Assembly: GCA_002690455.1 (NCBI GenBank)
Contig: NZET01000022.1
Location: 93,665 to 150,666 of the forward strand
Source: Kiloniella sp.
Lineage (GTDB): Bacteria > Pseudomonadota > Alphaproteobacteria > UBA7985
Direction of reading: 5' to 3'
Length of the DNA stretch: 57,002 bases
Part shown: positions 13,692-57,002 of the stretch, in pieces
Layout of the letters: each line of letters starts with the position of its first letter
How positions within the stretch are numbered: the first letter of the stretch is position 1
Notes under the pieces: model-generated
What the model was told of the DNA's origin: nothing
What the model saw: the letters and a program-made list of their open reading frames with translations, nothing else
The model's database searches: none
Program-made: the position numbers and the translations under genes

Positions 13692-13740
13692 TGCGCGTGG
13701 GAGATTTGTAAGCCGCGAAGCGGCGTCAAATCGAGCGCGC
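13692..13740 (+). repeat. Palindromic element, type A copy 1 (GCGAAGC apex)
   Basis: This 49-bp element recurs at 32684-32732 (one mismatch) and, inverted, at 56885-56933. It folds as three stacked stems: an outer TTGCGCG / CGCGCAA, a middle GATTTG / CAAATC and an inner GCCGC / GCGGC closed by the triloop GAA. It starts 22 bp after the waaA stop, in a gap between convergent genes. Confidence 0.9.
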
Positions 13741-13762
13741 AATTGTTGGTCATTACCGAAGT

Positions 13763-13810
13763 GCGCGGGGGAGGGCCGACGGCCGCGAAGCGGCCAAGGG
13801 CCGAGCCCGC
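13763..13810 (+). repeat. Palindromic element, type B (variant stem, same apex)
   Basis: It aligns end to end with the type A element: GCGCG.GGGAG at the left, GCCGCGAAGCGGC in the centre and CGAGC.CGC at the right. The middle stem is GGCC / GGCC instead of GATTTG / CAAATC, so pairing is kept while the bases differ. It lies 22 bp from type A copy 1, same orientation. Confidence 0.8.
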
Positions 13811-13873
13811 CATCATCTGCCGCAGGCTAAAAGCCTCGGTCTTCAGCGTCGAAGACCAGGTCGGGTCTGTACG

Positions 13874-15451
13874 TCAGAGCAGAGAGCCCTGGTCTTCGTC
13901 TTCAGGCTTTTGATATCGTTTGTGCTGACCTTTGGGCTTAGGTCTTGGCGCTGGAGAGGGGCCCTTTTTCACACCGGCAACGACGTCTACTGGGCCATCG
14001 AGGAAGTGCAGCTGCAATCGATCGCCTACAGCGATGTCCGCAGCGCGCGGTACGACGTCCCCGCTCTCTGTGCTAACCCAGACGTAGCCCTGCTCCAACA
14101 ACCGCTCTCGGCTCGACGCAAACGAATCCAGCAAACGCTGCACGTGAGCCAGCGCCTGCTGTTGTTGCTCGATGCGCCGCCTTGCCGCCTGTTGCATTCG
14201 TTCCGAAAACCGCTGCGCAGCAAAGCTCTGTGATCGTGCGCGATTCAGCTGTCCTGCCGCAGTGCTCAGGCGTTCCTTCAAGCCCTCTGCCAAATCGCTC
14301 ATTCGTTGCAAGCGCTCCCGCGGGTGGCGTACCCTCGCCGCTAGCGTGTCCAGCTGGCCTTTCTGCGTTCGGACCGCTGCCTGTAACCCCCGGTCCAGCC
14401 GTTGATCGAGCATGTCGAGCGCCTGTCGCCTTTCCTCGAGCAGACGGTTTGGATTAACCAGCCCGCGCGTCAATCCCGCCAACTCGGTCCGCGTCTGCTG
14501 AGCCTTGCGCTGCAACCCGCGGCCGAGCCGCGCGCTGGATTCCTGAATCCCGAGCAGCAAATCCGTGCGCACCGGGACTGCCATTTCTGCCGCGCCGGTT
14601 GGCGTCGGTGCGCGTCGATCGGCAACGAAGTCAATCAGCGTGGTATCTGTTTCGTGTCCCACCGCGGAAATTACCGGAATCGTGCTCTCAGCTACCGCCC
14701 GCACCACGACCTCTTCGTTAAAGCCCCACAGGTCTTCCAACGACCCACCGCCTCGTCCCACGATCAGCACATCTGGTCGCTGTACCGGCCCGTTGGGCGT
14801 AATCGCATTGAAGCCTGCCACCGCTGCGGCAATGTCGGCCGCTGCTTTCTCGCCCTGAACGGCCACGGGCCACAGGATCACATGGCGTGGAAAGCGGTCA
14901 GCGACCCGGTGCAGGATATCGCGGATCACTGCTCCGGAGGGAGACGTCACCACACCAATCACCCGGGGCAGAAAGGGCAACGGTCGCTTACGATCGGCCT
15001 CGAACAAGCCTTCGGCCATGAGTCGCTTGCGGCGGTCTTCGAGCAGCTTCAGCAGCGCCCCTTCGCCTGCGAGTTCCATTTGCTCGATTACGACCTGGTA
15101 CTTCGAGCCACCCGGGAACGTCGTCAGCTTGCCGGTGACGATGACTTCCATACCCTCTTCGGCGCGCAGGCCCAGCTTTGAAACTGCCCCCCGCCAGCAT
15201 ACGGCGTCGATGACGGCTTTCTCGTCTTTCAGTGTGAGATAGAGGTGTCCTGAACGATGATAGTTGGGGCGGGAAATCTCGCCGCGCACCCGCACCCGGT
15301 CAAAGGTGGTCTCGATCGTGCGTTTAACCGCCTGCGCGACCTCGGAGACGCTCAGCTCAGGGGCGTTATCGCCTGGCTGAGGCTTCCCGGTGGCGACTGC
15401 CTCGGGCACGCTCTTGCCCTTGGCTGGGTTGTCGAAATCGAAGATATCCAT
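13874..15451 (-). CDS. xseA: Exodeoxyribonuclease VII large subunit
   Basis: 525 residues. An N-terminal OB-fold (SVSEVAQAVKRTIETTF, then VRGEIS and HLYLTLKD) is followed by the catalytic domain with GVVTSPSGAVIRDIL, GRGGGSLEDLWGFNEE, AVGHETDTTLIDFVADRRA and PTPTGAAE, all standard XseA motifs. A long coiled-coil region (~330-450) and a C-terminal barrel follow. With XseB it degrades single-stranded DNA from both ends. The small subunit gene is not in the window. The end carries a Lys/Pro/Glu-rich tail. It is preceded by tadA with 17 bp between them, so the genes probably share an operon. Confidence 0.96.
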   Translation of the reverse strand: MDIFDFDNPAKGKSVPEAVATGKPQPGDNAPELSVSEVAQAVKRTIETTFDRVRVRGEISRPNYHRSGHLYLTLKDEKAVIDAVCWRGAVSKLGLRAEEGMEVIVTGKLTTFPGGSKYQVVIEQMELAGEGALLKLLEDRRKRLMAEGLFEADRKRPLPFLPRVIGVVTSPSGAVIRDILHRVADRFPRHVILWPVAVQGEKAAADIAAAVAGFNAITPNGPVQRPDVLIVGRGGGSLEDLWGFNEEVVVRAVAESTIPVISAVGHETDTTLIDFVADRRAPTPTGAAEMAVPVRTDLLLGIQESSARLGRGLQRKAQQTRTELAGLTRGLVNPNRLLEERRQALDMLDQRLDRGLQAAVRTQKGQLDTLAARVRHPRERLQRMSDLAEGLKERLSTAAGQLNRARSQSFAAQRFSERMQQAARRRIEQQQQALAHVQRLLDSFASSRERLLEQGYVWVSTESGDVVPRAADIAVGDRLQLHFLDGPVDVVAGVKKGPSPAPRPKPKGQHKRYQKPEDEDQGSLL

Positions 15452-15468
15452 CCCTGGGGCTTACCAGT

Positions 15469-15912
15469 TCAGCGCCGTTGGGCAAAGAAGGCTGAAAGAA
15501 GTTCTCCACAGCGGCCCTCTTCCACCCCGGCGATGACTTCCGGCGCATGGTGGCAGGTCGGCTGGGCGAAGACCCGCGGCCCGTGGTCAATTCCACCGGA
15601 TTTAGGATCAGCAGCGCCATAATAGACCCGACGCACCCGGGCCAGCGAAAGCGCGCCAGCGCACATGGGGCAGGGTTCCAGCGTTACGTATACGTCGCAG
15701 CCATCCAGCCACTTTTGGCCCAATACCCTGCTGGCCTCAGCAAGCGCAAGCATCTCCGCATGAGCGCTGGCGTTTTGATCGGATTCAACACAGTTTCCCG
15801 CTGCGGCGATGACCACACCGTCACGGACGACAACAGCGCCAACCGGCACTTCACCTTTCGCACCTGCGGCCTCCGCCTGTGCGAGCGCATCTTCGATGAA
15901 GGCCAGCGTCAC
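15469..15912 (-). CDS. tadA: tRNA-specific adenosine-34 deaminase
   Basis: 147 residues. The deaminase zinc site is present: HAE (catalytic His and Glu) and PCPMC with its two cysteines. The flanking VTLEPCPMCAGALSLARV and YYGAADPKSGG segments are typical of TadA, which converts A34 to inosine in tRNA-Arg(ACG). I chose GTG at 15912, because GAGG lies 10 bp upstream; TTG at 15918 is also possible but too close to that site. It begins 12 bp after the tldD stop, so translational coupling is likely. Confidence 0.9.
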   Translation of the reverse strand: MTLAFIEDALAQAEAAGAKGEVPVGAVVVRDGVVIAAAGNCVESDQNASAHAEMLALAEASRVLGQKWLDGCDVYVTLEPCPMCAGALSLARVRRVYYGAADPKSGGIDHGPRVFAQPTCHHAPEVIAGVEEGRCGELLSAFFAQRR

Positions 15913-15924
15913 GCTCAAAGGACC

Positions 15925-17343
15925 TCAGACCTGGGTGCCACCGACGGTTATCGCGTCGATTTTGCAGGTTGGCTGGCCCACGGTCACGGGCAGACTTTGA
16001 CCCGCTTTGCCACACATGCCCACGCCCTTCTTTATCTCGAGGTCGTTGCCGACCATCGATACACGGCGCATGACCTCGGGGCCGTTACCGATGAGGGTCA
16101 CACCTTTGATGGGTTCGGCAATCCGGCCGTCTCGGATCCGGTAGGCTTCAGTGATTTTAAAGGTGAACTGGCCGTTGGTAATATCGACCTGTCCGCCGCC
16201 AAAGTCGACGGCGTAGATGCCATCGCGGACCGAAGCGATAATCTCGCCCGGGTCATCCTGCCCGGCTGCCATAAAGGTGTTCGTCATTCGAGGCATGGGC
16301 GCGTGGGCGTAAGACTCTCGGCGGCCGTTGCCTGTTGCTGCCACCCCCATCAGTCGAGCGTTCATTCTGTCCTGCATGTAACCGACCAGCCGTCCGTTCT
16401 CGATCAGAACGTTATTCTGAGTCGGCGTCCCTTCATCATCGATGGCCAGTGAGCCACGATGGTCGGTCAGCGTGCCGTCATCGATGATGGTTACCCCAGG
16501 GGCCGCGACCATTTCACCCATCATGCCGGCATAGAGCGAAGTCTGCTTACGGTTGAAGTCGCCCTCCAGCCCGTGGCCGACCGCCTCATGCAACAAAACG
16601 CCAGGCCAGCCGGGGCCACAAACCACAGTCATCTCACCCGCGGGGGCTTCAACAGCCTGCAGGTTGACTTCGGCCTGTCGGATGGCCTGTGCGACGGCTT
16701 CTTCCCAGGCCAGCTCTCCGATATGCGGGTCAAGTGCCGTGCGCCCGCCGAGCGCAAACCCACCCGCCTCGCGCTTGTCACCATCCTGCAGCATCACCGA
16801 CACCCGCATCGACGACATCGGGCGGGAATCGCTGACACGGAAGCCGCCGGGGCGGAGAACTGTCACGTCTTTGTGGGCGGTCGAAAGTGATACTGTTACC
16901 TGCCGCACTCGGGGGTCTTTACCTCGGGCGTGGGCGTCAATGGTCTGGGCCAGCGCCACCTTTCTCTCAAAGCTCGGTCCGGCGTCGATCACGTCCTCGT
17001 CGGTATAGGGGCGCTGGTTGGTGCGCTTTGGGTCAAGCGCCAGCGTGCCACCGCCCGAACGCGCCGCCGCGGCCGCCGTCTCGCCTGCGCGGGCCAGCGA
17101 CGCCTCGGTGACCTGATCCGAGTGCGCGTAGCCGGTCAGTTCACCGGCCACTGCGCGCAAACCGAAGCCGCGGTCTTCGTCATAGGATGCCCGCTTCAGT
17201 CGACCGTCATCGTAGACCAGCGTCTGCGCCTTGGTATGTTCGAGATAGAGCTCGCCGTCATCGGCGCCGAGCAGCGCCGACTCCAGCTGTGAGAGGGCAA
17301 AATCTGGGTCGAGGTCGAGATCCGGCAGCAGAGGCAGGCCCAT
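15925..17343 (-). CDS. tldD: TldD metalloprotease subunit
   Basis: 472 residues, full length. The zinc-binding HEAVGH at 252-257, followed by GLEGD, marks it as TldD, the catalytic half of the TldD/TldE heterodimer; PmbA (10979-12346) is the other half. The complex cleaves modified peptides and is needed for microcin B17 maturation and CcdA degradation in E. coli. C-terminal VGMCGKAGQSLPVTVGQPTCKI is the usual TldD end. It is divergent from coxB, an order common in alphaproteobacteria, and is followed by tadA and xseA. Confidence 0.95.
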   Translation of the reverse strand: MGLPLLPDLDLDPDFALSQLESALLGADDGELYLEHTKAQTLVYDDGRLKRASYDEDRGFGLRAVAGELTGYAHSDQVTEASLARAGETAAAAARSGGGTLALDPKRTNQRPYTDEDVIDAGPSFERKVALAQTIDAHARGKDPRVRQVTVSLSTAHKDVTVLRPGGFRVSDSRPMSSMRVSVMLQDGDKREAGGFALGGRTALDPHIGELAWEEAVAQAIRQAEVNLQAVEAPAGEMTVVCGPGWPGVLLHEAVGHGLEGDFNRKQTSLYAGMMGEMVAAPGVTIIDDGTLTDHRGSLAIDDEGTPTQNNVLIENGRLVGYMQDRMNARLMGVAATGNGRRESYAHAPMPRMTNTFMAAGQDDPGEIIASVRDGIYAVDFGGGQVDITNGQFTFKITEAYRIRDGRIAEPIKGVTLIGNGPEVMRRVSMVGNDLEIKKGVGMCGKAGQSLPVTVGQPTCKIDAITVGGTQV

Positions 17344-17594
17344 GATGTCATCGTCCTAAGCAAAGGTGAGTTGCGAAAAGGCTAAAGCTCAACAGGATAT
17401 GGTGCCGAGTCAAAGGGTTTCGAGGCCTCAAAGGCAAGATTAATCCGCGTCAATCCGCCCTGCGGCCCACCTATGACTTTGCTTGTGAATTCATGTCGTC
17501 TAAGAGAAGGTCAAACTGGAAGCAATGGAGCAGGATCGTATCCCGGTTGGCTCGGCTTTCGTTAATGAACATCATTGTTAAGCAAGCAGGTCCC

Positions 17595-18545
17595 ATGGTG
17601 CGGATTTTCAAATCTATATTGCTCGCGTTGTCCGTTGTGGCGGTCGCGGCGACAGAAGCCCAGGCTCAGGTTACGGTCCAGGGTATTCCGGCTGAATACG
17701 GTCTCAGCTTCCAGGAGCCGGCAACGCCGATCATGGAACGCGCCGTCGGGCAGTTCAACGTGTTCATCCTGCCACTGATGGCGGCGGTGACAGTTTTCGT
17801 TCTGCTTCTTCTTCTGTGGACCTGCTGGGCGTTCCGTGAGCGCGATGGCCACCAGGCGAACAACGTCACCCACAACACCACCATCGAGATTGTCTGGACT
17901 GTTGTTCCGATTCTCATTCTGGTTGTCATGTTCGTACCGGCGATGCGGTTCCTGTACTACAACGAGAATGGCCCGGACATGCTCATCAACGGTGAGCGTG
18001 GCAACGACACGCACGCTGAACTTGTCATGCAAGTCACCGGCAACCAGTGGAACTGGACCTACGAATACTTGCTTTACCGGGATGAAAATGGCGTGGAGAC
18101 CGATGTCTCCGGACTGGAATTCACCGCGAATATGCTTCCACAGGACGCGCTGCTTTCTGACCCGCGTCGCGATGGCAGCCTGTACAAGGGCGAAACCGAT
18201 TATCACGTGGTAATTCCAAGCAACACCGTAGTGCGGTTCAACGTAACCGCTTCTGACGTGCTGCATGCCTTTGCGATGCCGGCTTTTGGTGTGAAGGTGG
18301 ATGCAATCCCGGGTCATATGAACAACACCTGGGCGCTGGTGAACCCTGGTAAAGAAGGCCTGTACATCGGCCAGTGCTCTGAAATCTGTGGTGACCGTCA
18401 CTCCTTTATGCCGATTGCCATCGACGCCCTGCCCAAGGACGAGTTCCTCGCCTGGGTCGGCACTGCGAAGAGTGAACTGGAAGGCGGCGCGATAGGTCCG
18501 TCCCTGCCGGCACGCTACGACAATCAGGTTGCTGCGGCGAATTAA
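17595..18545 (+). CDS. ctaC: Cytochrome c oxidase subunit II
   Basis: 316 residues. A signal peptide (KSILLALSVVAVAATEAQA) is followed by two membrane helices (~50-75 and ~95-115) and a periplasmic cupredoxin domain. The CuA ligands are visible in GQCSEICGDRHSFMPI (two Cys, His, Met) with an upstream HAFAMPAFGVK. A TWNWTYE-like aromatic stretch (NQWNWTYEY) marks the electron-entry patch. Together with CtaD and CtaE it forms the aa3-type oxidase that reduces O2 and pumps protons. I chose ATG at 17595 because it gives a normal signal peptide and has CAGG upstream; ATG at 17565 is possible. It heads the cox cluster. Confidence 0.95.
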   Translation: MVRIFKSILLALSVVAVAATEAQAQVTVQGIPAEYGLSFQEPATPIMERAVGQFNVFILPLMAAVTVFVLLLLLWTCWAFRERDGHQANNVTHNTTIEIVWTVVPILILVVMFVPAMRFLYYNENGPDMLINGERGNDTHAELVMQVTGNQWNWTYEYLLYRDENGVETDVSGLEFTANMLPQDALLSDPRRDGSLYKGETDYHVVIPSNTVVRFNVTASDVLHAFAMPAFGVKVDAIPGHMNNTWALVNPGKEGLYIGQCSEICGDRHSFMPIAIDALPKDEFLAWVGTAKSELEGGAIGPSLPARYDNQVAAAN

Positions 18546-18563
18546 CGCCCGGCTGATTTAAGG

Positions 18564-18585
18564 CCGACCCCGGTCGCGGGGTTGG
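18564..18585 (+). terminator. Hairpin between ctaC and ctaD
   Basis: CCGACCCCG pairs with CGGGGTTGG around a GTCG loop, just after the ctaC stop and before ctaD. With no T-run it is more likely an mRNA-stabilising or attenuating hairpin than a full terminator. Confidence 0.5.
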
Positions 18586-18658
18586 TCTAAACCGAAACTA
18601 CGACGCAACGATAAAGTCCAAGACCACTACTTACGGCCAAGGATTCAAGGAAGAGACT

Positions 18659-20278
18659 ATGGCTTACGCAGCAGATCACGCCGCTGACCACCACGACCAC
18701 AAGCCAAACCCATTCTGGCGGTGGTTTGGCTCGACCAACCACAAGGACATTGGCACGCTGTATCTGGTGTTCTCGGTTTTCACCGGGATCATCGGCGCCG
18801 CGCTTTCTGTCGTTATGCGGATGGAGTTGTCTGACCCAGGCGTGGAATTCCTCGTCAAGGAAAACGGCGACCCCAACGGTCACTTCTGGAACACCATTAT
18901 CACCGCCCATGGGGTAATCATGATTTTCTTTGTGGTCATGCCCGCACTGATCGGTGGCTTTGGTAACTGGTTTGTGCCGTTGATGATTGGTGCGCCAGAT
19001 ATGGCCTTCCCGCGTATGAATAACATCTCGTTCTGGCTGCTGGTTCCAGCGCTGGGCTTTGGGATCCTTTCCGCTGTGGTAGGCGGGGGCGCTGGCACAG
19101 GCTGGACCTTCTATCCGCCGCTATCAGTCATGCAGCCTGACAAAATGTCGGTTTCGTTTGCGATTTTTGCCCTGCACATGGCCGGTGCGTCGTCCATTAT
19201 GGGGGCGATAAACTTCATCACCACGATCCTGAACATGCGTGCACCTGGCATGACCCTGCACCGCATGCCACTGTTTGCCTGGGCCATGTTGGTTACGGCC
19301 TTCCTGCTGCTTTTGGCCGTACCGGTTCTCGGCGGTGCCATCACTATGCTGCTGGCAGATAACGCGCTTGGCACCTGTTTCTTCTGCGCCGAAGGCGGCG
19401 ACCCGGTCCTGTTCCAGCACCTGTTTTGGTTCTTCGGTCACCCCGAAGTTTACATCATGATCCTGCCGGCTTTCGGTATCGTCAGCCACGTGGTCAGCAC
19501 GTTCTCCCGCAAGCCTATCTTCGGTTACTTGGGCATGGCCTACGCCATGGTGTCGATCGGCTTCATCGGCTTCGTTGTCTGGGCTCACCACATGTATACC
19601 GTTGGTATGCCGACCAATGTTCAGGCCTACTTCACCCTGGCGACCATGGTCATTGCGGTTCCAACCGGTATCAAGATCTTCTCCTGGATCGCGACGATGT
19701 GGGGCGGCTCGATTCGCTTCACCACCCCGATGCTCTGGGCTGTCGGCTTCATCTTCCTGTTTACACTCGGCGGCGTGACCGGCGTCATGCTGTCCATGGC
19801 CCAGTTCGACAAGACGCTTCACGACACCTACTTCGTGGTTGCGCACTTCCATTACGTTCTGTCCATGGGCGCGGTCTTCGCGATCTTCTGTGGCTGGTAC
19901 TACTGGATCGGCAAAATGTCCGGCCGTCAGTACCCCGAATGGGCAGGCCAACTGCACTTCTGGACCTTTTTCGCGGGCGTGAACCTGATCTTCTTCCCTC
20001 AGCACTTCCTGGGCCTACAGGGTATGCCGCGTCGCTACATCGACTACCTCGACACGCAGGCGTTCTACAACGCAATCTCTTCCTGGGGGGCTTACCTGTC
20101 GTTTGCTTCGACCCTGTTCTTCCTAGGTATCGCGATTTACACACTGGTGGCCGGTCGCCGCGTTGGCGACAACTACTGGGGTGATGGTGCGACCACGCTG
20201 GAGTGGACGGTTTCTTCCCCACCGCCGTTCCATACCTTCGATGACCTGCCACAGATTGAGCCTGAGGCAGCGCACTAA
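18659..20278 (+). CDS. ctaD: Cytochrome c oxidase subunit I
   Basis: 539 residues with 12 membrane helices. The heme-copper core is complete: low-spin heme His in AHGVIMIFF, CuB/Tyr helix [23 protein letters not shown] and the two heme ligands in [20 protein letters not shown]. The K- and D-channel residues typical of A-type oxidases appear intact ([10 protein letters not shown] and the HPEVY tyrosine). It binds heme a, heme a3 and CuB. A good AAGGA site precedes the ATG. The N-terminus is rich in His and Asp (AADHHDHK). Confidence 0.98.
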
Positions 20279-20289
20279 GAAGGAGTACG

Positions 20290-21264
20290 ATGTCCAGCAT
20301 CGTCGATCAAAACACCTCGGCGGCCGATGGCTATGAAGACTCAGCCATCACCGCCGCCGAGTTGAGCGAAAACGACGCGCCACAGACTGGGTCCGTGGCG
20401 CGCGCTTATTTCCAGCTGCTGAAACCGCGGGTCATGACCCTTGTGGTCTTTACTGCAGCGGTTGGCTTGTGGCTTGCGCCCGGCGAGATCGAGGCTTGGC
20501 GCGCCCTTCTCGGGCTGCTGACCCTCGCGGTCGGGGCCGGGGCCTCAGGCGCGCTAAATATGTGGTATGACCGCGATATTGATGCGCTCATGTCGCGAAC
20601 GGCCCGGCGCCCCATCCCCAATGGCGACGTCGGCCCCAGTGCAGCGCTGGTCTACGGACTCGCACTGTCCATTGGTTCAGTGATTGCCTTGGGTCTGGTG
20701 ACGAACTGGGTCGCCGCTGGCATCCTTGCCTTTACCAACGCTTTCTACGTCGTCATCTACACGATGTGGCTCAAGCGCCGGACGGCGCAGAACATTGTCA
20801 TTGGCGGTGCAGCAGGTGCCTTCCCTCCCATGATCGGTTGGGCCATGGTTTCGGGTGATATTTCGTGGGTAGGATTCGTGCTCTTCGGCCTGATCTTCCT
20901 ATGGACCCCGCCGCACTTCTGGGCGCTGGCGCTGGTTAAGGAGAGCGAATACGGCGCGGTCAAAGTGCCCATGCTGCCGAACGTTGTCGGCGCGCAGGAA
21001 ACCAAGCGCCAGATCGTAATCTACACCGCCGCTATGTCGCTGATCGGGCTCGTCCCTTTCGTATTGGGCGCAGCGGGGTACATCTATTTCGTCGTGGCGC
21101 TGGCCTTTGGCGGCCTGTTCATGGTCAACGCCTGGCAGCTGTTGCGGGGGGACTCGCTCGCACCGGCCAAACGGATGTTCGGCTTCTCGATCTTTTACCT
21201 GTTTCTGCTGTTCGGGCTGTTGCTCGTCGACGCCCGCAGCCACGTCAGCCTGACCTGGTCATGA
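20290..21264 (+). CDS. ctaB: Protoheme IX farnesyltransferase (heme O synthase)
   Basis: 324 residues, a UbiA-family membrane prenyltransferase. [14 protein letters not shown], the aspartate motif [15 protein letters not shown] and the second motif in [19 protein letters not shown] are visible; these bind farnesyl diphosphate through Mg2+. It attaches a farnesyl group to heme B, giving heme O for the oxidase. AAGGAG precedes the ATG, 11 bp after the ctaD stop, so it is cotranscribed with the oxidase. Confidence 0.97.
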
Positions 21265-21309
21265 GCCAGCGCCATCGGTCAGCCCGTTTTCTGCTAGGAG
21301 TGTGACGCC

Positions 21310-21468
21310 ATGTCGAACAAGAAAGATACGAAAGACCAAAATCGCCGCCCAGAGTGGATTAAGGGTCGAGCCCGCGGCAATCTGATCATCTTCGCGGTAC
21401 TGGCCATCTTCGTGCTGGGTTGGTACGGCTATTTCCTGATCAACACCGCGATGCGAGCACAGCCGTAG
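21310..21468 (+). CDS. Small single-span membrane protein of the cox cluster
   Basis: 52 residues, ATG to TAG, with AGGAG nine bases upstream. A charged cytosolic start (MSNKKDTKDQNRRPEW) is followed by one hydrophobic span from ~24 to ~45 (NLIIFAVLAIFVLGWYGYFL). Many alphaproteobacteria have such a short protein (often called CtaF/CoxF-like) between ctaB and ctaG; its role is unclear, perhaps in oxidase assembly or as a minor subunit. Position, size and topology agree with that family, but the sequence alone is too short to prove it. Confidence 0.75.
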   Translation: MSNKKDTKDQNRRPEWIKGRARGNLIIFAVLAIFVLGWYGYFLINTAMRAQP

Positions 21469-21508
21469 CGCTTCCGCTGCCGCAAACCCTAGGCAGGACT
21501 GCTAAAGC

Positions 21509-22093
21509 ATGAGCACACAGACCCCCCCCATTCGCCGCTCAGGGCGCGGTAACACGCGCGTGCTGCTGCTGTCCCTCGGGGTGATCGCCGGCATGCTGGC
21601 GCTCGTTGCCACGGCACCGGCGGCTTACCGTAAGTTCTGTGAGATCACAGGCATTTCCGGCACAACGCAGGTCGCTGAAGCCAGTGATGCTGAGGCAGCG
21701 GCCGAGCGTGCAAGCCTGGCAGGTGGACTGGGCGAGATCGAAGTGTTGTTCACCGCCAGCGTTGACCCCAGCCTGCCATGGAAATTCCGGCCCAAACAGC
21801 GCACGGTGCGCCTGCCTATTGGAGAGCAAGGCGAAGTTGCATACGAGGCTGAAAACCGCTCCCGCACTCAGACGACACTGGGCACGGCAACCTTTAACGT
21901 GACCCCGCTGCAAGCCGGTCGCTACTTCTCCAAAATTCAGTGTTTCTGTTTTGAAGAACAGCAACTGGACCCCGGCCAGTCGGTTGATATGCGGGTGTTA
22001 TTCTATGTTGATCCGGCGATCCGCAATGACCCGGATTTGAAAGATTTGCGCCAGATCACACTTGCTTACACCTTCTTCAATGCCAATGACTGA
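21509..22093 (+). CDS. ctaG: Cytochrome c oxidase assembly protein CtaG (Cox11 family)
   Basis: 194 residues. One N-terminal membrane anchor (~14-34) is followed by a periplasmic immunoglobulin-like domain. The copper-binding motif is intact: KIQCFCFEEQ, with C-x-C. PWKFRPKQRTV and MRVLFYVDP are other family segments. Cox11/CtaG delivers copper to the CuB site of subunit I. It lies between the small membrane protein and ctaE. Confidence 0.97.
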   Translation: MSTQTPPIRRSGRGNTRVLLLSLGVIAGMLALVATAPAAYRKFCEITGISGTTQVAEASDAEAAAERASLAGGLGEIEVLFTASVDPSLPWKFRPKQRTVRLPIGEQGEVAYEAENRSRTQTTLGTATFNVTPLQAGRYFSKIQCFCFEEQQLDPGQSVDMRVLFYVDPAIRNDPDLKDLRQITLAYTFFNAND

Positions 22094-22215
22094 TTCCCGG
22101 TCGGAAGCTTCCGCAAAATTGCAGGGGTCGAAAGCGCCCGAAGCCCGTTGCGCGCCAGCGCTCAGACGCTTAAAAGACGTTTCGAATACTAACTTCAGCA
22201 CAAGGACATCCAGCG

Positions 22216-23073
22216 ATGGCAGACGCGCATCACGGTCCGAACCACGACTATCACCTTGTTGACCCGTCCATCTGGCCACTCACGACATCGCTGAGTGTCG
22301 GTGCCTTACTCTTTGGACTGGTGCTGCTGTTCCATTTTGACCCGAATACAAACTACGAAGGGTTGATGGCGACCCTGATAGACGTTCGCTGGTTTATTGT
22401 CGGGCTCGCAGGCGCGGGAATGATTGCCTCGGTGTTTGGCTGGTGGGGTGATGTGATCAAAGAGAGTCGGCAGGGGGACCATAAGCCGATTGTGCAGCTG
22501 GGCCTGCGCTATGGCATGCTGTTCTTCATCGCCTCGGAAGTGATGTTCTTCTTCGCCTTCTTCTGGGCCTACTTCAATTTCGGCGTGACCGAAGAAGCCT
22601 GGCCGCCGAAGGGTACCGAAGCCTTCAACCCAATCGATATGCCGCTTTACAACACCGTGATTCTGCTGCTCTCCGGTGTTACGGTGACTTGGGCGCATGA
22701 GGCCATTCGCTATGGCAATCGCTCAGACTACCTGATCTCTCTGGGTCTGACTGTCGTCCTTGGTGTATTGTTTACCGGGATGCAGGCGGTGGAATACATC
22801 GAAGCGTTCTCCGTCTTCGGCTACGGCCCAGACGCAGAGGGTGTCGTTCGAACCTACCCATCTGTATTCCTGATTGCGACCGGATTTCACGGCGCTCACG
22901 TGATCATCGGCACGACCTTCCTAGCCGTGTGTTGGTTCCGGGGACTGGCCAACAACATCACCAAAGAAAAGCACTTCGGATTTGAAGCGGCGGCTTGGTA
23001 CTGGCACTTCGTCGACGTGGTGTGGCTGTTCCTTTACGTTTCCATTTACTGGGGCATTTTTGATCGCGGCTAA
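22216..23073 (+). CDS. ctaE: Cytochrome c oxidase subunit III
   Basis: 285 residues with seven predicted membrane helices. Family signatures include HHGPNHDYHLVDPSIWP at the start, a conserved carboxylate in ASEVMFFFAFFWAYF and TGFHGAHVIIGT followed by WYWHFVDVVWLFLY. Subunit III stabilises proton uptake by subunit I and completes the three-subunit core. AAGGA lies nine bases before the ATG. The gap to ctaG (122 bp) holds no other clear gene. Confidence 0.97.
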   Translation: MADAHHGPNHDYHLVDPSIWPLTTSLSVGALLFGLVLLFHFDPNTNYEGLMATLIDVRWFIVGLAGAGMIASVFGWWGDVIKESRQGDHKPIVQLGLRYGMLFFIASEVMFFFAFFWAYFNFGVTEEAWPPKGTEAFNPIDMPLYNTVILLLSGVTVTWAHEAIRYGNRSDYLISLGLTVVLGVLFTGMQAVEYIEAFSVFGYGPDAEGVVRTYPSVFLIATGFHGAHVIIGTTFLAVCWFRGLANNITKEKHFGFEAAAWYWHFVDVVWLFLYVSIYWGIFDRG

Positions 23074-23142
23074 AGCCGCTGGTCGTTTGGCCGTCATGAG
23101 CCGGCGGGTGTTGTCTTTCCGGGGCGCGGTGGAGTTTCTGAT

Positions 23143-23889
23143 ATGAACCGCGCCTTCGGCTCCCGTCACTTCCGTCCCCGCCCCATTCTCTACTGTCTGG
23201 CGCTTCCATGCTTCGTGCTGCTGTGCAGTCTGGGCCTATGGCAGCTGCAGCGGTTAGCATGGAAGAATGATCTTTTAGCAGCGCAGATTGCGCGGGAGGC
23301 CACGCCGCCGCGGAATATCACCGCCGCCGCTGTGCTGGCTGATTTGTCCGATTTTACCGGTGTGCGCCTGAGCGGCGACCTTGACCTCTCCCGATCTATT
23401 GGCTTCTTCGGCCGAACCGCGAACGGGCGGCAGGGGCGGGATTTCTACGCGCCACTCACGCTGGCCGATCAGCAGATCGTCTGGATCAAGCTGGGTTGGC
23501 GCCAGACCGATCCTGACATCAACGCCGGCACCCAGGCGGGATTGCTCAGCGGCACCTTGCCCGACGGGCAGGTCTATCAGGGTGGCTGGCGCGGCAACCC
23601 GCGCTTTTACCCCGGCAACCAGCCCGAGCGCGACCTCTGGGCTGTGGCTGAGCCCGCAGCTCTCTCCGCCCACGTCGGCCTCGATCCCGAGCAGACGCTG
23701 GCTCAGCTGGTTGAACTTACCCAACCCCTGATGGCCAGTGGGGGCTTCGTGCCGACCCCCACGGGCAGCGAACTTCGTAACCCCCATCTCAGCTATGCGG
23801 TACAATGGTTCAGTTTCGCAGCGCTGCTGGCGCTGTTCGTCGCTTTGCTCAGCTTTCCTCGTCGCCCGGAAAAGGAACCAACGCCATGA
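23143..23889 (+). CDS. SURF1-family cytochrome oxidase biogenesis protein
   Basis: 248 residues with a membrane helix at each end (~14-33 and ~225-242) and a periplasmic loop between, the SURF1/Shy1 layout. GLWQLQRLAWK near the first helix and LRNPHLSYAVQWFSFA before the second are the conserved segments. SURF1 helps insert heme a into subunit I. The stop overlaps the next start (ATGA). A DUF983 gene is often found just before SURF1 in relatives, but none is present here. Confidence 0.92.
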   Translation: MNRAFGSRHFRPRPILYCLALPCFVLLCSLGLWQLQRLAWKNDLLAAQIAREATPPRNITAAAVLADLSDFTGVRLSGDLDLSRSIGFFGRTANGRQGRDFYAPLTLADQQIVWIKLGWRQTDPDINAGTQAGLLSGTLPDGQVYQGGWRGNPRFYPGNQPERDLWAVAEPAALSAHVGLDPEQTLAQLVELTQPLMASGGFVPTPTGSELRNPHLSYAVQWFSFAALLALFVALLSFPRRPEKEPTP

Positions 23890-25376
23890 CCGCCTATGCT
23901 GCGCTTGAAGCGCTTAACGCCCGCGCTGGAACCCTTGGCGAAGCACTGTCGATCCTGCACTGGGATCAACAGGCAATGATGCCCGCCGGTGGTAACGATA
24001 GCCGGGGCGAACAGACCGCGCTGCTTGAGACCATGATCCACGAAATTGCTGCTGGACCGGCCATGGGGGAGGCGATCGAAGCTGCCTCAGCTCAGAATGA
24101 CCTCGACCCCTGGCAGCGTGCCAACGTCGCCGAGTCCCGTCGTCGATATCTGCGAGCAACGGCGCTACCGGCGGAGCTGGTTGCGGCAAAGGCCCGCGCT
24201 GAGAGCCAGGCCTTCGCCGTGTGGCAACAGGCCCGACCTGCCGATGACTTTGTGGCGGCTCTGCCCGCGCTGCGCACCTGTTTCAATCTTGCGCGACAGG
24301 CGGGGCAGGCCATCGCCGACGCCACGGGACAGCCGCTTTATGAAGCGATGATCGCGGGCTTTGAACCTGACTTGAGCGTTGCCGAAATTGATGCTGTGTT
24401 CGACGACTACGCCGCGTTTCTGCCTGACTTCCTCGACAATGTGCTGGCCGCACAGCATCGACGTGAACCGCCGATACCGCTGGAGGGGCCTTTTGACATC
24501 GAGCTGCAGAAAGCAGCGTTTCAGGACATTATGGGCGCGCTTGGCTTTGATTTTGACCATGGTCGACTCGATACGTCGGCACATCCGTTTTGCGGCGGGA
24601 CGCCGTCCGACGTGCGTATGACCACCCGCTATAGCGACGGGGCCTTTCTCGATGCGATGATGGGGGTAGTGCATGAAACCGGACACGCGCTCTACGAGCA
24701 GGGACTGCCTGCGCAGTGGGCGCGCCAGCCGGTGGGGCAGGCAAGGGGGATGGTTCTGCACGAAAGCCAGTCGCTGACCATCGAGATGCAGATCGTGCGT
24801 TCACAGGCGTTTATGACCTTCGCCGCGCCAAAGCTGGCGCAAGCCTTCGGAAAATCTGGCCCGGCCTGGAGCGCGGAGAACCTCGCCAGCCACGCCGCAA
24901 GGGTGGAGCGCAGCTTCATTCGGGTAGAGGCCGATGAAGTGACATATCCTGCGCACGTGATCCTGCGCTACCGCCTTGAGAAGGCGATGCTCACGGGTGA
25001 TCTGGACCTCGCCGACTTGCCGCAGGCCTGGGGCGACGGGCTGGAGGCGTTGCTTGGCATTCGACCACCGTCTGACCGTGAAGGTTGCTTGCAGGATATC
25101 CACTGGTACAGCGGGGCTTTCGGCTATTTTCCGACGTACAGCCTCGGAGCCATGTGTGCCGCACAGGTCTTTGCCGCCGCGCGGGAGCAGCTTGGCGAGG
25201 TTGAGGCCCAGATCGAGGTTGGTGATTTCGCCCCGCTATTGAACTGGTTGCGCACCAACATCCACAGCAAGGCTTCGTCTGGATCTACAAACGAAATTCT
25301 GATGGCTGCGACCGGCTCTGCCTTACGCACAGATGCGTTCAAAGCGCATTTGCAGCGGCGTTACCTCGATGGCTAA
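23886..25376 (+). CDS. Carboxypeptidase Taq (M32 family)
   Basis: 496 residues, the usual M32 length. The zinc site HETGH is present in GVVHETGHALYEQGLP, with the third ligand glutamate in the downstream HESQS segment. The N-terminal ALSILHWDQQAMMP and the later DVRMTTRY and HVILRYRLEKAML segments are typical. M32 enzymes are cytosolic metallocarboxypeptidases. The ATG at 23886 overlaps the SURF1 stop by four bases and has AAGGA upstream; earlier in-frame codons lie inside the SURF1 gene. This gene sits between surf1 and thrC, which are usually neighbours in alphaproteobacteria. Confidence 0.93.
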   Translation: MTAYAALEALNARAGTLGEALSILHWDQQAMMPAGGNDSRGEQTALLETMIHEIAAGPAMGEAIEAASAQNDLDPWQRANVAESRRRYLRATALPAELVAAKARAESQAFAVWQQARPADDFVAALPALRTCFNLARQAGQAIADATGQPLYEAMIAGFEPDLSVAEIDAVFDDYAAFLPDFLDNVLAAQHRREPPIPLEGPFDIELQKAAFQDIMGALGFDFDHGRLDTSAHPFCGGTPSDVRMTTRYSDGAFLDAMMGVVHETGHALYEQGLPAQWARQPVGQARGMVLHESQSLTIEMQIVRSQAFMTFAAPKLAQAFGKSGPAWSAENLASHAARVERSFIRVEADEVTYPAHVILRYRLEKAMLTGDLDLADLPQAWGDGLEALLGIRPPSDREGCLQDIHWYSGAFGYFPTYSLGAMCAAQVFAAAREQLGEVEAQIEVGDFAPLLNWLRTNIHSKASSGSTNEILMAATGSALRTDAFKAHLQRRYLDG

Positions 25377-25452
25377 GCTGCACGCCAGAGGAAGGTCGGC
25401 CGCAGCGGCATGCCACCTGTAACGGAAGAGCGAAGGCAGGAAACAGAGCACC

Positions 25453-26844
25453 ATGCAGTACATCTCAACACGCGGCGCGGCGCCTGAACTTGGGTTTGAC
25501 GAAGTTCTGCTTGTCGGATTGGCAAACGATGGCGGGCTTTACGTTCCCAAGACCTGGCCGCAAGTCAGCACTGAGCAGCTCCACCAGTGGTCGACGCTGA
25601 GCTATCAGGCGCTGGCCGTTGAGGTCATGCTGCCCTTTGTCGAGGACAGCATTCCGCGAGACGACTTTGCTGTGCTGGTGGACCGAGCCTATTCAACCTT
25701 CCAGCACTCTTCGGTGACACCGCTCAAACAGCTCGATTCTAATCTGTACCTGTTGGAGTTGTTCCACGGCCCCACGCTGGCCTTTAAGGACTGCGCGCTG
25801 CAACTGCTGGGACATCTATTCGACCACGTGCTGGAGCAGCAGGACCGCCGCGTTACCATTGTCGGCGCGACGTCTGGTGATACGGGCTCGGCAGCGATCG
25901 AGGCGATCAAGGGCCGTGCGCGCGCCGATATCTTTATCCTGTTCCCTGAGGGTCGAGTAAGCCCGGTGCAGCAGCGGCAAATGACAACAGTTAGAGCCGA
26001 GAACGTGCATGCGCTGGCCATCGATGGAACCTTTGACGACTGCCAAGATCTCGTTAAGGCCATGTTTGCCGACAAAGGATTCCGTGAAAAGGTCAATCTT
26101 TCCGCCGTGAATTCAATCAACTGGGCGCGCATCATGGCTCAGATCGTCTACTACTTCTGGGCCGCACTCCGCTTAGGAGCGCCAGAGCGAGAGGTCGATT
26201 TCTGTGTTCCCACGGGTAACTTCGGAAACGTTTTTGCGGGTTACGCCGCGAAGCAGATGGGCCTGCCTATGGGGCGGCTGATGGTTGGTTCGAATCGCAA
26301 TGATATCCTGACCCGCTTTTTCGAAAGTGATGACATGAGCACGCGCGCGGTTGAGCCAAGCCTGAGCCCGTCCATGGACATCCAGATATCGTCGAATTTT
26401 GAGCGTTACCTCTTCGACCTTCTCGACCGTGACGGAAAGGCGACAGGTCAAACTATGACCGATTTCCGCCGGACCGGCCGGATGCAGGTGGGTCAGGGCG
26501 GCTGGAACCGCGCCAAGTCCGAATTTCATGGATTTTCGCTGAGTGATTCGGCCTGTGTGGCGGCCATGCAGCACTGGCACAAAGCCGCTGGCGAAGTGCT
26601 TGATCCGCACACAGTGATCGGGGTCCAGCACGCGGCTGAGTTTGGTACCGTTGAGCGGCCTGCGGTCGCGCTGGCGACGGCGCATCCGGCAAAATTTCCT
26701 GCAGCAGTGAAGCGGGCGCTGGGGTTTGAGCCGGCGCTGCCTTCGCATCTCACTGACCTTTACGACCGACCCGAGCAGTTCTCCGTGCTGGCCAACGTGC
26801 TCGAAGACGTGCAAAACCACGTTCTGACTAACCGGCGGGGCTGA
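25453..26844 (+). CDS. thrC: Threonine synthase
   Basis: 463 residues. A PLP-dependent lyase that makes threonine from O-phosphohomoserine. The PLP lysine lies in FHGPTLAFKDCALQLLG, and the phosphate loop is ATSGDTGSAAIEA. NSINWARIMAQIVYYF and VPTGNFGNVFAGY are also typical. The N-terminal YISTRGAAPELGFDEVLL is the class-specific start. It lies between the oxidase cluster and an M16 peptidase, as in many alphaproteobacteria. Confidence 0.97.
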   Translation: MQYISTRGAAPELGFDEVLLVGLANDGGLYVPKTWPQVSTEQLHQWSTLSYQALAVEVMLPFVEDSIPRDDFAVLVDRAYSTFQHSSVTPLKQLDSNLYLLELFHGPTLAFKDCALQLLGHLFDHVLEQQDRRVTIVGATSGDTGSAAIEAIKGRARADIFILFPEGRVSPVQQRQMTTVRAENVHALAIDGTFDDCQDLVKAMFADKGFREKVNLSAVNSINWARIMAQIVYYFWAALRLGAPEREVDFCVPTGNFGNVFAGYAAKQMGLPMGRLMVGSNRNDILTRFFESDDMSTRAVEPSLSPSMDIQISSNFERYLFDLLDRDGKATGQTMTDFRRTGRMQVGQGGWNRAKSEFHGFSLSDSACVAAMQHWHKAAGEVLDPHTVIGVQHAAEFGTVERPAVALATAHPAKFPAAVKRALGFEPALPSHLTDLYDRPEQFSVLANVLEDVQNHVLTNRRG

Positions 26845-26892
26845 GGCCGTGCGCAGGTTCGTGCGCGATAGGGCGCGCGGGGGGGAGGGGTC

Positions 26893-28167
26893 TTGAGCGT
26901 AACCATCAGCCAACTTAACAACGGTCTCCAGATCGTTACGGACGCCATGCCCGGTGTAGAGACAGTGGCTCTGGGACTATGGTTCAAGGTCGGTGCGCGC
27001 TACGAAAAGCCTGAATACAGCGGGATGGCCCACTTCCTTGAACATCTGCTGTTCAAGGGTACGGCCCGACGTTCTGCCTTTGCCATCAGTGAAGAAATCG
27101 AGGCAAAGGGTGGGTACCTAAACGCCTACACCAGTCGCGAGAGCACGGCCTTTTACGCCCGCATGCTGAGCAAGGATACAGCGCTGGGGCTGGACGTGCT
27201 GTCAGACATTCTGCAGAGCTCGGTGCTAGACGACCGCGATATCGAGCGTGAGCGCGCGGTCATTCTTCAGGAAATTGCGCAGGCTGAAGATGCGCCAGAT
27301 GACGTGGTGTTCACCGATTTTCAGGCGCAAGCCTTCATGAAACAGGGCCTGGGGCAGTCAGTGCTGGGTAATCAGCAGACTGTGGGACAGATTGATCGCG
27401 CGGCAGCATGGGAGTTCTGGCACCACCACTACCGCCCCGATAAGGCCATTCTAGTGGCCAGTGGCGGGGTCGATCACGATGACATCACCCGGCAGGCTGA
27501 AACCCTGTTCTGGCCCGATCGGGCGCAACGAGGGGCGCGGGAAATGCCGCCCGCAGCGCTCTACACGGGTGGAGTGCATTTGCGAAAACGCACGTTGGAG
27601 CAGGTGCACACTGTTCTAGGCTTCGAAGGCGCACCGTTAACGGAGGCTCGTTACTTCGCCAGCGCTGTGCTGGCGACACTGCTGGGCGGTGGGGCGTCAT
27701 CCCGCCTGTTTCAAGAAGTGCGCGAACGAAGGGGGCTGGCCTATCACGTGGGTGCTCATACCTCGGGTTATGCCGATACCGGGTTGTTTTCCGTCTACGC
27801 CGGCACGGGGCAGGAGGCGGAGACCGAACTGCTCGGTGTTGTGATCGACGAATTCCAGCGCCTGGTCGAGGAGCCAATAGGAGAGGACGAGGTCGAGCGG
27901 GCTCGGGCGCAGATCCGGACCTCGTTCCTGATGGCGCGGGAGAGCACGTCGAGTCGAGCTGAAGACGCCGCGCAGCAAATGCTGGTCTACGGGATTCCGC
28001 GTTCTGTTTCGGATCTTATCGGGCAAATCGATGCGGTTGACGCGGCGGCCTTGCGGCAGGAGGCTGAGCTCATCCTCTCGACCCCCATGACACTGGCCGC
28101 CGTCGGGCCGGTTGACGATCCTGCGGCTTTGCAAAAGCTCACCGAGCGGCTGCACGTAGCGGGTTAA
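26893..28167 (+). CDS. M16-family zinc peptidase (mitochondrial processing peptidase type)
   Basis: 424 residues, two M16 halves. The inverted zinc motif is HFLEH in MAHFLEHLLFKGT (~46-58), with the distal Glu in the segment ERERAVILQEIAQAEDAP. GGGASSRLFQEVRERRGLAYHVGAH is the second-domain glycine-rich segment. Alphaproteobacterial members next to thrC resemble beta-MPP and probably degrade or trim peptides. The start is TTG at 26893, preceded by GGGAGGGG; no in-frame ATG exists near the family N-terminus. Confidence 0.92.
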   Translation: MSVTISQLNNGLQIVTDAMPGVETVALGLWFKVGARYEKPEYSGMAHFLEHLLFKGTARRSAFAISEEIEAKGGYLNAYTSRESTAFYARMLSKDTALGLDVLSDILQSSVLDDRDIERERAVILQEIAQAEDAPDDVVFTDFQAQAFMKQGLGQSVLGNQQTVGQIDRAAAWEFWHHHYRPDKAILVASGGVDHDDITRQAETLFWPDRAQRGAREMPPAALYTGGVHLRKRTLEQVHTVLGFEGAPLTEARYFASAVLATLLGGGASSRLFQEVRERRGLAYHVGAHTSGYADTGLFSVYAGTGQEAETELLGVVIDEFQRLVEEPIGEDEVERARAQIRTSFLMARESTSSRAEDAAQQMLVYGIPRSVSDLIGQIDAVDAAALRQEAELILSTPMTLAAVGPVDDPAALQKLTERLHVAG

Positions 28168-28198
28168 TCGCTGGTTGCCGCTCCTTGTTTCCGCCAGC

Positions 28199-28789
28199 TT
28201 ACTTGTCAGCAGCCGGGGGCAGGATTACGGCTTGTCCGCAGACAGCCTCGCCGTCCTGAACCATCATCATCGGATCCCCGTAGAGCTGGTATCCGTCCGC
28301 CAGCGCGGCAGAAATCTTTTCGCAGAATTCGCGGGTGTTCGGGCCGGTGAGAAAGCGATAGGCGAGGCGCTCGGTTGCAGCAGTGCCGCCCTCTTCACCT
28401 TCCAAGGGCTGAATGGATTCAATGCGAAACTGTGCGGTGGCATCATCAACGGTGGCCCAGGCCCGCTCCTGCCATTTGGCTTCAGCCTGCTCATAGCTCT
28501 CGAACGGTCCATGACGTTCGGGTATGCCGGCCCACTCCTTGAAGGATGTATCTTTGAAGCTACCACCGATCACCCAGAAGGCGCCCTTGCCGCCAGCGGT
28601 AAGGTCAACTTCCTCGATATGGAAATGAGCATTGGCGTCGTCGACAGTTTCCCAGGCCAGTTGCTGCCAGACCTTTAGCGCATTGTCATAGGTATCAAAG
28701 GGACCCTCGCGCACTTCTTGCGTGCCGTCGGCCAGATTTTTGAAGGCGGTTGATTCATAAACACCGCCCACGACCCAGAACTGCCGCAT
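28199..28789 (-). CDS. Tandem DUF4170 - DUF4170 - DUF1737 protein
   Basis: 196 residues made of three modules. Residues 2-61 (FWVVGGVYES ... GPFDTYDNA ... WETVDDANAHFHI) and 70-126 (FWVIGGSFKD ... GPFESYEQA ... WATVDDATAQFRI) are two copies of the DUF4170 unit, which is normally a separate ~70-residue protein. Residues 143-192 (YRFLTGPNTREFC ... DGYQLYGDP ... GQAVIL) match DUF1737, also usually separate. Functions of both are unknown; no catalytic motif is visible, and the small repeated fold suggests binding. AAAGGG precedes the ATG and directly abuts a (CAG)7 tract. Confidence 0.8.
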   Translation of the reverse strand: MRQFWVVGGVYESTAFKNLADGTQEVREGPFDTYDNALKVWQQLAWETVDDANAHFHIEEVDLTAGGKGAFWVIGGSFKDTSFKEWAGIPERHGPFESYEQAEAKWQERAWATVDDATAQFRIESIQPLEGEEGGTAATERLAYRFLTGPNTREFCEKISAALADGYQLYGDPMMMVQDGEAVCGQAVILPPAADK

Positions 28790-28804
28790 GTGTTTCGCCC
28801 TTTG

Positions 28805-28825
28805 CTGCTGCTGCTGCTGCTGCTG
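28805..28825. repeat. (CTG)7 trinucleotide repeat next to a ribosome-binding site
   Basis: Seven perfect CTG units (CAG on the minus strand) are followed by degenerate GTG/GCG units. The tract ends one base before the AAAGGG ribosome-binding site of the minus-strand DUF4170 gene. Confidence 0.9.
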
Positions 28826-28906
28826 GTGGTGGCGGCGGTGAGCCGCTCGGTTGCAGCGATCTCGTAGCCTTCCTGGCCGTCGCTGTCATCGCGCAAAGCG
28901 CGAGGG

Positions 28907-29512
28907 TCAGGCGTGTCCACCCACGGAAGCAAGTTGGCCCGGGTCAATACCGAGCTTGGCAATGGCTTGTTTCCAGGCGGGCTCATTCTCTGAGAGGAAA
29001 ATCAACTCGTGATCAGGCTCAATACTGATCCAGGCGTTGGCCTCCAACTCCTGCTCCAACTGCCCTGCGGCCCACTGTGAGCAGCCAAGCGCGATCAGGT
29101 AGTCAGCCGGTCCCTGCCCTTCGGCGATGTCCCGCAGGATCTCCACTGCCGTGGTCAGGCAGACCTCGTCGGTGACTTTCAACGTGGTATCGTGTTCGTA
29201 GTCGGGAGAATGCAAAACAAAGCCACGCTGTTCCTGCACCGGGCCGCCGCGCGTCACCCGCCCGCGGGGAGTCACGTTAGCGTCGATGGAGAGGTTCTCC
29301 AGCACTTCGGTGAAGGTTAGGCCGTGATGGCTGTGGTTTACGACCACGCCCATGGCCCCGTCTTCGCCGTGAAGACACATGTATATCACCGACTTCTCAA
29401 AGAGCGGGTCGCCGATGTGTGGCGTTGCCACCAGCAATTTGCCTTGCAGCCCATAGGGGGTGCTGGCGACGGAAAACTCCTGCGGTGGGGCGGTCGGCTC
29501 GGGCATACGCAT
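28907..29512 (-). CDS. AlgH / YqgE family protein (UPF0301)
   Basis: 201 residues. The core reads GKLLVATPHIGDPLFEKSVIY, then GAMGVVVNH, VTRGGPVQEQRGFVLH and ALGCSQWAAGQLEQEL, all characteristic of the YqgE/AlgH family. Members are cytosolic; the name comes from alginate regulation in Pseudomonas, and the molecular role is unsettled. The ATG at 29512 lacks a clear Shine-Dalgarno sequence; a second ATG two codons later is equally possible. It is divergent from the ScsB gene. Confidence 0.93.
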   Translation of the reverse strand: MRMPEPTAPPQEFSVASTPYGLQGKLLVATPHIGDPLFEKSVIYMCLHGEDGAMGVVVNHSHHGLTFTEVLENLSIDANVTPRGRVTRGGPVQEQRGFVLHSPDYEHDTTLKVTDEVCLTTAVEILRDIAEGQGPADYLIALGCSQWAAGQLEQELEANAWISIEPDHELIFLSENEPAWKQAIAKLGIDPGQLASVGGHA

Positions 29513-29583
29513 TAGACTAGGCGGCTCGCCGCATCTGTAAAGGCGCAAAACTGTGACATTCCGCTTCGCAGTCCATTAAGACG

Positions 29584-29609
29584 GTCGATGGTGGCTGTCG
29601 ATGGTGGCT
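29584..29609. repeat. 13-bp tandem duplication
   Basis: Two perfect adjacent copies of GTCGATGGTGGCT lie in the divergent region between the AlgH and ScsB genes, where promoters of both must sit. Confidence 0.85.
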
Positions 29610-29750
29610 CAGCGTGTCGTGAAGCGACAGTGAGGACGGAATTATCTATAGCTGGGTGCGAGGCAGGTCGTTGACCCGGACAAAGGCTGTCGTCGCCTGA
29701 GGGTGGAGCAGACAACGGTGTCAAACAGAGAGTGGGGGCCAGAAAGCAGA

Positions 29751-32012: not shown

Positions 32013-32168
32013 CCGCGCCATTTCATTCCCTGGTGGTGCTGCTTGCCGCTATTCCCTCGGCTATCGGCCTTGCGCATGGTGCCAAAAGCCGCGAGCTTTC
32101 CGCCACAGTCTGGGGGGCTTTGGCGGGACACGCACCATATAGTGAGTATGGATTTGAGAGAGACCGGC

Positions 32169-32645: not shown

Positions 32646-32683
32646 GGGTGTCGGAGCGCCTTACTCGTCTCAGCCGCAGTGTT

Positions 32684-32732
32684 TGCGCGTGGGAGATTTG
32701 AAAGCCGCGAAGCGGCGTCAAATCGAGCGCGC
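32684..32732 (+). repeat. Palindromic element, type A copy 2
   Basis: It is identical to copy 1 at 13692 except for one base in the first internal loop (GAAAG for GTAAG). The outer stem is even longer here: TTTGCGCG pairs with CGCGCAAA. It lies between the convergent peroxiredoxin and rnhA genes. Confidence 0.92.
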
Positions 32733-32868
32733 AAAAATGATTAAGAACGCAGCCCAGTTGACTGGTTTTAATCGGAGCGAGATCACTGTTGGCTAGAGCA
32801 GCCTGCATCTCTCGTTGTTCTTTATCTCACTCGTATTCGTTCGCGTCCCAATCCTCCTCCGCTAAAGT

Positions 32869-56780: not shown

Positions 56781-56831
56781 TGCGCGACGCCTTGTCGAAG
56801 ACCGCGAAGCGGTCGAGACAAGGCCGGCGCA
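56781..56831 (+). repeat. Palindromic element, type C (same apex, different stems)
   Basis: TGCGC / GCGCA outer stem, GCCTTGTC / GACAAGGC middle stem and GACCGC / GCGGTC inner stem closed by GAA. It shares the central CCGCGAAGCGG with types A and B but none of the middle stem sequence. Confidence 0.8.
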
Positions 56832-56884
56832 ACCATTCCCAGATAAAACTTAGCGCAGCGCGTGTTGATTGAAAAGCTCGCGTG

Positions 56885-56966: not shown

Positions 56967-57002
56967 ACGCTGTCTCGCATTTACGGAGTTGCGCGGGGGC
57001 GG

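Follow-up and report, generated by a model that had tools for sequence, protein, structure and literature searches.

A genus-confined family of unlike-paired 51-nt palindromes, similar to REP/BIME repeats, marks the end points of inversions in a marine alphaproteobacterial lineage

Short intergenic palindromes of the REP type have been known for decades. Five palindromes with a common centre, found in the gene gaps of an alphaproteobacterium (Kiloniella sp.), raise the question whether they form such a family, how they came to lie where they do and what they do there today. The window, i.e., the whole stretch of 57,002 nt that was analyzed, lies on contig C6 of a draft genome of 1.69 Mb that is 63% complete; beyond it, the analysis covered search hits and selected stretches of the draft and its relatives. 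Sequence inspection and a covariance model (R1) recovered all five palindromes of the preliminary description as 51-nt units; of the positions given there, two were off by 1–2 nt. Two units lie side by side in the same orientation: a subtype A element at 13692..13742 (+; R1 score 75.4 bits; middle stem GATTTG/CAAATC, apex CCGCGAAGCGG), starting 21 nt past the stop of a waaA-like gene, and a subtype B element at 13762..13812 (+; 66.0 bits; middle stem GGGCC.../...GGGCC), with the xseA stop 61 nt away on its other side. A second A element (32684..32734, +; 76.0 bits) occupies the convergent gap between a peroxiredoxin-like gene and rnhA. Further along, a subtype C element (56781..56831, +; 53.5 bits; middle stem GCCTTGTC/GACAAGGC) and its inverted partner, an A element at 56883..56933 (−; 76.2 bits), form a +/− pair around a spacer of 51 nt (56832–56882). 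The same A copy forms a −/+ pair with a sixth element (TGCGCGGGGGCGG, 56990..57002, +), which is cut off by the contig end and lies 56 nt away, about the usual spacer length for this arrangement. A hairpin of the kind typical of −/+ spacers, CACGCCGGGC-TAA-GCCCGGCGTG, is located at 56944..56966. One additional exact core, at 42715 (−), falls within a coding region and is treated as a chance occurrence.

The unit is an imperfect palindrome with three stems on one axis, namely an outer stem, a middle stem and an apex hairpin. Its ends are constant, with the consensus TGCGCG...GCGCCA or GCGCAA: TGCGCG is present in 108 of 131 distinct copies and a 3′ CCA or CAA in 110 (CCA in 69). Outside the 51 nt, conservation drops within 2–3 nt on both sides. 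The outer stem of 5 bp, GCG(C/T/G)G, adjoins the constant ends and is separated from the middle stem by an internal loop, GGA/GAG in A and B; a second internal loop reads taa/gt in A and gaa/aa in B. Middle stems are GATTTG/CAAATC in A, GGGCC/GGCCC in B and CCTTGTC/GACAAGG in C, besides rarer forms such as GCTTTG/CAAAGC, and the sister species G004 carries others that pair as well (CGTTTTC/GAAAACG and CGGGTTC/GAACCCG). The middle stems had been said to differ completely and yet to pair, which holds with the exception of one G.G mismatch in the B copy at 13762.

The accompanying claim that the structure is kept by paired changes was likewise borne out. Over 17 pairs, covariation reached 0.327 versus 0.139 after shuffling for the genome's own copies and 0.294 versus 0.111 for those of relatives, although the individual cells are not independent events because much of the covariation is between subtypes. 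None of 500 shuffles matched the score in either set, and no slid version came near. Within subtypes, pairs 14-39 and 15-38 co-change in places in B, and pair 13-40 does so in A. The register that sets columns 4–8 against 45–49 in the outer stem shows covariation at 7-46; for A and B, the alternative 2–6/45–49 does about equally well, and C has an offset of its own. Single-strand folds were significant for A and C both as DNA and as RNA (RNA z about −5), whereas the B copy at 13762 was non-significant as DNA (z −1.05), owing to its very high GC content. Two B copies of 33 nt, L099:2853-2885 and L085:4358-4390, are without exactly the apex, as expected of a deletion between short repeats flanking a hairpin.

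At the apex lies GCGAAGC, and d(GCGAAGC) is a known stable synthetic DNA hairpin in the aptamer literature. The heptamer is retained in 112 of 131 distinct copies, a count from copies found by a model that favors GCGAAGC. The preliminary description had regarded the apex as fixed, which stems in part from how the copies were found: a model search also recovers copies in which the outer apex pairs vary with compensation, altering both sides while leaving GCGAAGC intact (GACGGCGAAGCCGTC, GGGCGCGAAGCGCCC, GGTCGCGAAGCGACC and GAGCGCGAAGCGCTC). Counted by eye, loop changes to AAA, GAG and GAC were as common as those keeping GNA; thus, no selection for a GAA or GNA loop is evident from the data, and this explanation was dropped. 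The elements resemble d(GCGAAGC) in sequence and differ from it in a loop that varies here with no GNA preference. A special role of the mini-hairpin as single-stranded DNA, as first proposed, is therefore weakened, the more so as folding as DNA and as RNA could not be separated. No paper tying the d(GCGAAGC) mini-hairpin to REP elements was found in a literature search.

Inside the window alone, enrichment is modest, with 8 cores at one mismatch against 3.6 ± 1.8 expected, and repeats are frequent at contig ends, as would be seen if GC-rich palindromes had arisen by chance or through an error of assembly. Genome-wide, however, the exact CCGCGAAGCGG core occurs 74 times in the 1.69-Mb draft compared to 3 times for a reversed control. 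The scan with a covariance model that had been proposed as a check pointed the same way: R1, built from 47 copies, returned 87 hits at a threshold of E ≤ 0.1, so that further copies exist far beyond chance. The boundaries of the 51-nt unit are sharp, and the same family is present in the independent assemblies MED803 (G002; 81 exact cores) and SP156 (G005; 60 exact cores). An origin by chance or artefact is already refuted by these data, and we assign it practically no probability.

The family does not extend beyond a single genus: among 116 relatives scanned, it was present in all six genomes of the genus and in none of the 110 outside it. R1 hits in the remaining genomes of the genus numbered at least 51 each in MED803 and SP156, and 11, 7 and 3 in the other three; three of the six species are copy-rich, and copy number ranges from 3 to more than 80 between sister species. 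Named members are marine MAGs, i.e., SP156, labelled Geminicoccus sp., and MED803 and MED834, both labelled Rhodospirillaceae. The family is well defined and comes from an uncultured marine lineage. Inspection led to the exclusion of named hits in Puniceicoccales and Geobacteraceae, in which the palindromes around the same core are different ones. In the Puniceicoccales MAG Roe453_bin18 (loci L057 and L109), unrelated palindromes, GCGGTCCGCATCCGCGAAGCGGATGCGG, with GGGAG before them, share the CCGCGAAGCGG core.

Copies less than 450 bp apart were counted as neighbors, which gave 86 cases. The two copies were inverted in 78 of them; the A and B elements at 13692 and 13762 are one of the eight same-orientation exceptions. 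The inverted pairs include 51 AB, 16 AC, 4 BC and 3 AA pairs, with no BB or CC pair, so that A stands opposite B or C in 67 of 78. Same-type inverted pairs were observed 3 times against 29.4 expected, a deficit reached in 0 of 20,000 permutations. Spacer lengths cluster at 51 and 57–60 nt in −/+ pairs and at 51–56, 102–103 and 123–125 nt in +/− pairs, and the spacers hold internal hairpins whose stems vary yet pair. Two other kinds of palindrome were noted here. One lies beside A copies in spacers (CACGCCGGGC..GCCCGGCGTG or GGACAGGCCGCG..CGCGGCCTGACGTC) and has a variable pairing stem and a CGTC-like flank. The other (GCTCAAAACGCTTCGCTTTGAGC and relatives, ACTCAAA..TTGAGT) occurs in +/− spacers and between genes (L199 80-215; spacers of L048 and L010).

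The unlike-pair rule might reflect instability instead of a mechanism of spread, if identical neighbors, inverted or direct, were deleted by hairpin processing or slippage. Same-type neighbors are indeed absent in either orientation except for the three A/A pairs, which have spacers of 178–210 nt. Also in keeping with deletion, the two B copies of 33 nt have cleanly lost the apex, and the same idea has been put forward for heterodimers of other REP families (PMC3733652). B–C neighbors, however, number 4, compared to about 12 by our own estimate from the B and C frequencies with same-type pairs removed, and this shortage suggests that A has a distinct role. We therefore consider instability a serious but not the probable source of the rule; it can be combined with the explanation that we favor below.

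None of the copies in the fetched loci overlaps a predicted gene, as judged from gene calls of a simple codon-usage script that is adequate for placement and is not a curated annotation. Of 44 clusters, 18 are convergent, 13 tandem, 5 divergent and 8 at contig ends. Convergent placement, at 18 of 36 resolved clusters, thereby exceeds its share among the junctions of the window (6 of 48; P ~5e-8, binomial; 2e-4, Fisher). This agrees with the initial view that all elements lie in gaps after gene ends and at least two of them between convergent genes: the sites at 13692/13762 and 32684 are convergent, and the pair at 56781/56883 lies past a gene end at the contig edge. A recurrent neighbor gene as carrier was rejected, as no group among the 80 adjoining proteins exceeded three members.

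Such placement could also be expected of selected RNA elements, in which the hairpin ends or protects the transcripts of convergent genes and is kept for this function, not by spreading. Copies often lie 3–60 nt past a stop, the stems are maintained by paired changes, and the RNA folds of A and C are as strong as given above. This reading is nevertheless unlikely in our opinion: orthologous gaps in three sister species are without the element and no substitute was seen there, orientation relative to transcription looks random at tandem sites, and the make-up of sites changes freely. Moreover, a T-tract lies beside just 12 of 210 copies on either strand, and on this ground an intrinsic terminator consisting of a hairpin followed by a T-tract was rejected. 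Rfam matches at gathering score in the window were restricted to one tRNA, with none for the element.

The elements had further been likened to REPs mobilized by RAYT transposases. In classical REPINs, a Y1 transposase acting on single-stranded hairpins moves an inverted pair, and its gene would have to be missing from the drafts. Inverted pairs with hairpin spacers, intergenic sites and expansion in some species match REPINs (PMC3116915, PMC8266576). However, searches with Y1_Tnp (PF01797) and with the RAYT model NF047646 gave no match at E ≤ 0.1 in the six genomes of the genus, which are drafts of 63–96% completeness including two at 94% and 96%; E. coli and other controls do match. The GTAG guide was found within 12 nt upstream of 1 of 210 copies. 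In published REPINs, doublet copies are more conserved than singles, whereas here paired copies were no more alike than single ones in the comparison of A (92.5% versus 91.3%, P 0.27) and B (86.5% versus 91.1%, P 0.83), with few single copies available. Since both tag and RAYT are absent, mobilization by a RAYT is not supported, and we regard it as very unlikely.

In the general sense, the family nevertheless belongs with REPs and BIMEs, as it consists of many intergenic imperfect palindromes that form inverse mosaics of subtypes with a linker. In the BIMEs of E. coli, a y REP combines inversely with z1 or z2 via a linker, giving y-z1 and y-z2 mosaics (PMC8266576). Our elements share with them the short intergenic palindrome, the internal mismatch loop and the three subtypes, with A corresponding to y and B and C to z1 and z2. 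E. coli units, however, measure 29–37 nt, compared to 51 nt and three stems here, and the present family has no GTAG, no RAYT gene was found with it, and it is restricted to one alphaproteobacterial genus. The REPINs of Pseudomonas fluorescens are similarly intergenic inverted doublets with a spacer hairpin that shows compensatory changes (PMC3116915), but those doublets have been described as belonging to one REP group, whereas here the two ends are unlike and no RAYT is seen. The CGTC REPs of Alphaproteobacteria, described by Di Nocera et al., have no dedicated transposase and abundant unlike dimers (PMC3733652). To these our elements are close in host range, in the missing dedicated transposase, in common heterodimers, in mostly convergent or tandem sites and in many CCA ends (PMC3733652). 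CGTC REPs differ in having a single stem of 8–9 bp and a 5′ CGTC/TGTC/CCTC tag, compared to three stems here. CGTC occurred within the first 12 nt of 0 of 131 distinct copies; the CGTC-like flank lies on the spacer hairpin beside A, not on the element. As neither the CGTC tag nor the single short stem is present, we regard these elements as a new REP/BIME-like family that belongs to neither of the two tagged superfamilies.

Taken from sequence comparison, the most probable explanation is that these are old mobile paired repeats, genus-specific and BIME-like, which by now are passed down at fixed sites, decay and serve as sites of recombination. The unit of spread would have been the inverted unlike pair, A with B or C, around a hairpin spacer of set length. 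The spread itself probably took place in the common ancestor of the copy-rich three, driven by an enzyme since lost or unrecognized. Today, copies would mostly be inherited in place, with exchanges of one for another (B for C), tandem duplication and erosion. Inverted A copies would provide the homology through which recombination flips the intervening DNA. A present cellular role, if there is one, would most likely be that of a bidirectional hairpin at transcript 3′ ends.

Comparison of orthologous gaps between sister species, some of which were too diverged for alignment, often revealed differing make-ups, e.g., B+ / B+A− / A− or B−A+ / C−A+, and one tandem double pair. Orthologous sites are empty in three of the six species. 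In the distant sisters G001, G003 and G004, the order waaA/xseA and peroxiredoxin/rnhA is kept, and the gaps are short and element-free. An insertion with a clean target site or a target duplication was not found among four places examined. One pair of sites among them turned out to be coding, and in another case units had been added in tandem to a C-like copy that was already there. The latter, at G005:C32 99529-99974 (compared with G002:C30 at ~34.24 kb), was the best insertion candidate: both species share a diverged C-like copy with another apex, and G005 gained B, A and a second C.

Three inversions between sister species, of 19, 11 and 3 kb, are newly described here, and both end points of each lie at element sites. 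In G002, it is the peroxiredoxin gene that lies opposite the waaA end, and rnhA has xseA opposite it. Hence, the ~19-kb segment from xseA to the peroxiredoxin gene (13743..32683; 13.7–32.7 kb), which has an element site at each end in the window, is inverted there. G005 probably has the same inverted order, as the end of its contig C32 equals the start of C10, being the same stretch around an A copy. The two ends of G005 C10 hold inverted repeats that are nearly identical and surround A copies. Neither G002 junction shows an element any longer, so that element-mediated recombination of the 19-kb segment is an inference. The second inversion, of 11.2 kb on contig C17 (4.4–15.65 kb) relative to G005:C37, has its end points at A copies, and the third, of 3.2 kb on C3 (24.0–27.3 kb) relative to G002:C39, is bounded on either side by inverted A copies in each of the two genomes. 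Over the whole of C6 (150 kb), gene order breaks at two places only, both of them element sites; on C23, by comparison, it breaks at 54.2 kb (~52–61 kb region) relative to G005:C5 without an element. The inversions on C3 and C17 came to light in loci chosen for their elements, so that the excess at element sites is suggestive and not measured.

The literature describes as open why unlike units form pairs in many REP families and by what means families lacking a RAYT move (PMC3733652). The strict unlike-pair rule, the lack of a RAYT match in six genomes, empty sites, copy numbers from 3 to more than 80 and the inversions make both questions testable by comparison of close strains. A bolder reading, to which we give little credence, takes the family as a RAYT-independent REP system. 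In it, the obligatorily unlike ends would make a mobile recombinogenic unit, pairs would be spread by an unknown enzyme, and inverted A copies would flip segments, with element sites as the genus's main inversion end points. A doubled arrangement was observed on contig C20 of G000 (17571-18002 and 46676-47107), where the same B..A pair, together with spacer and right flank, is present in two places, one of them the contig end; it represents either a recent duplication or an assembly artefact.
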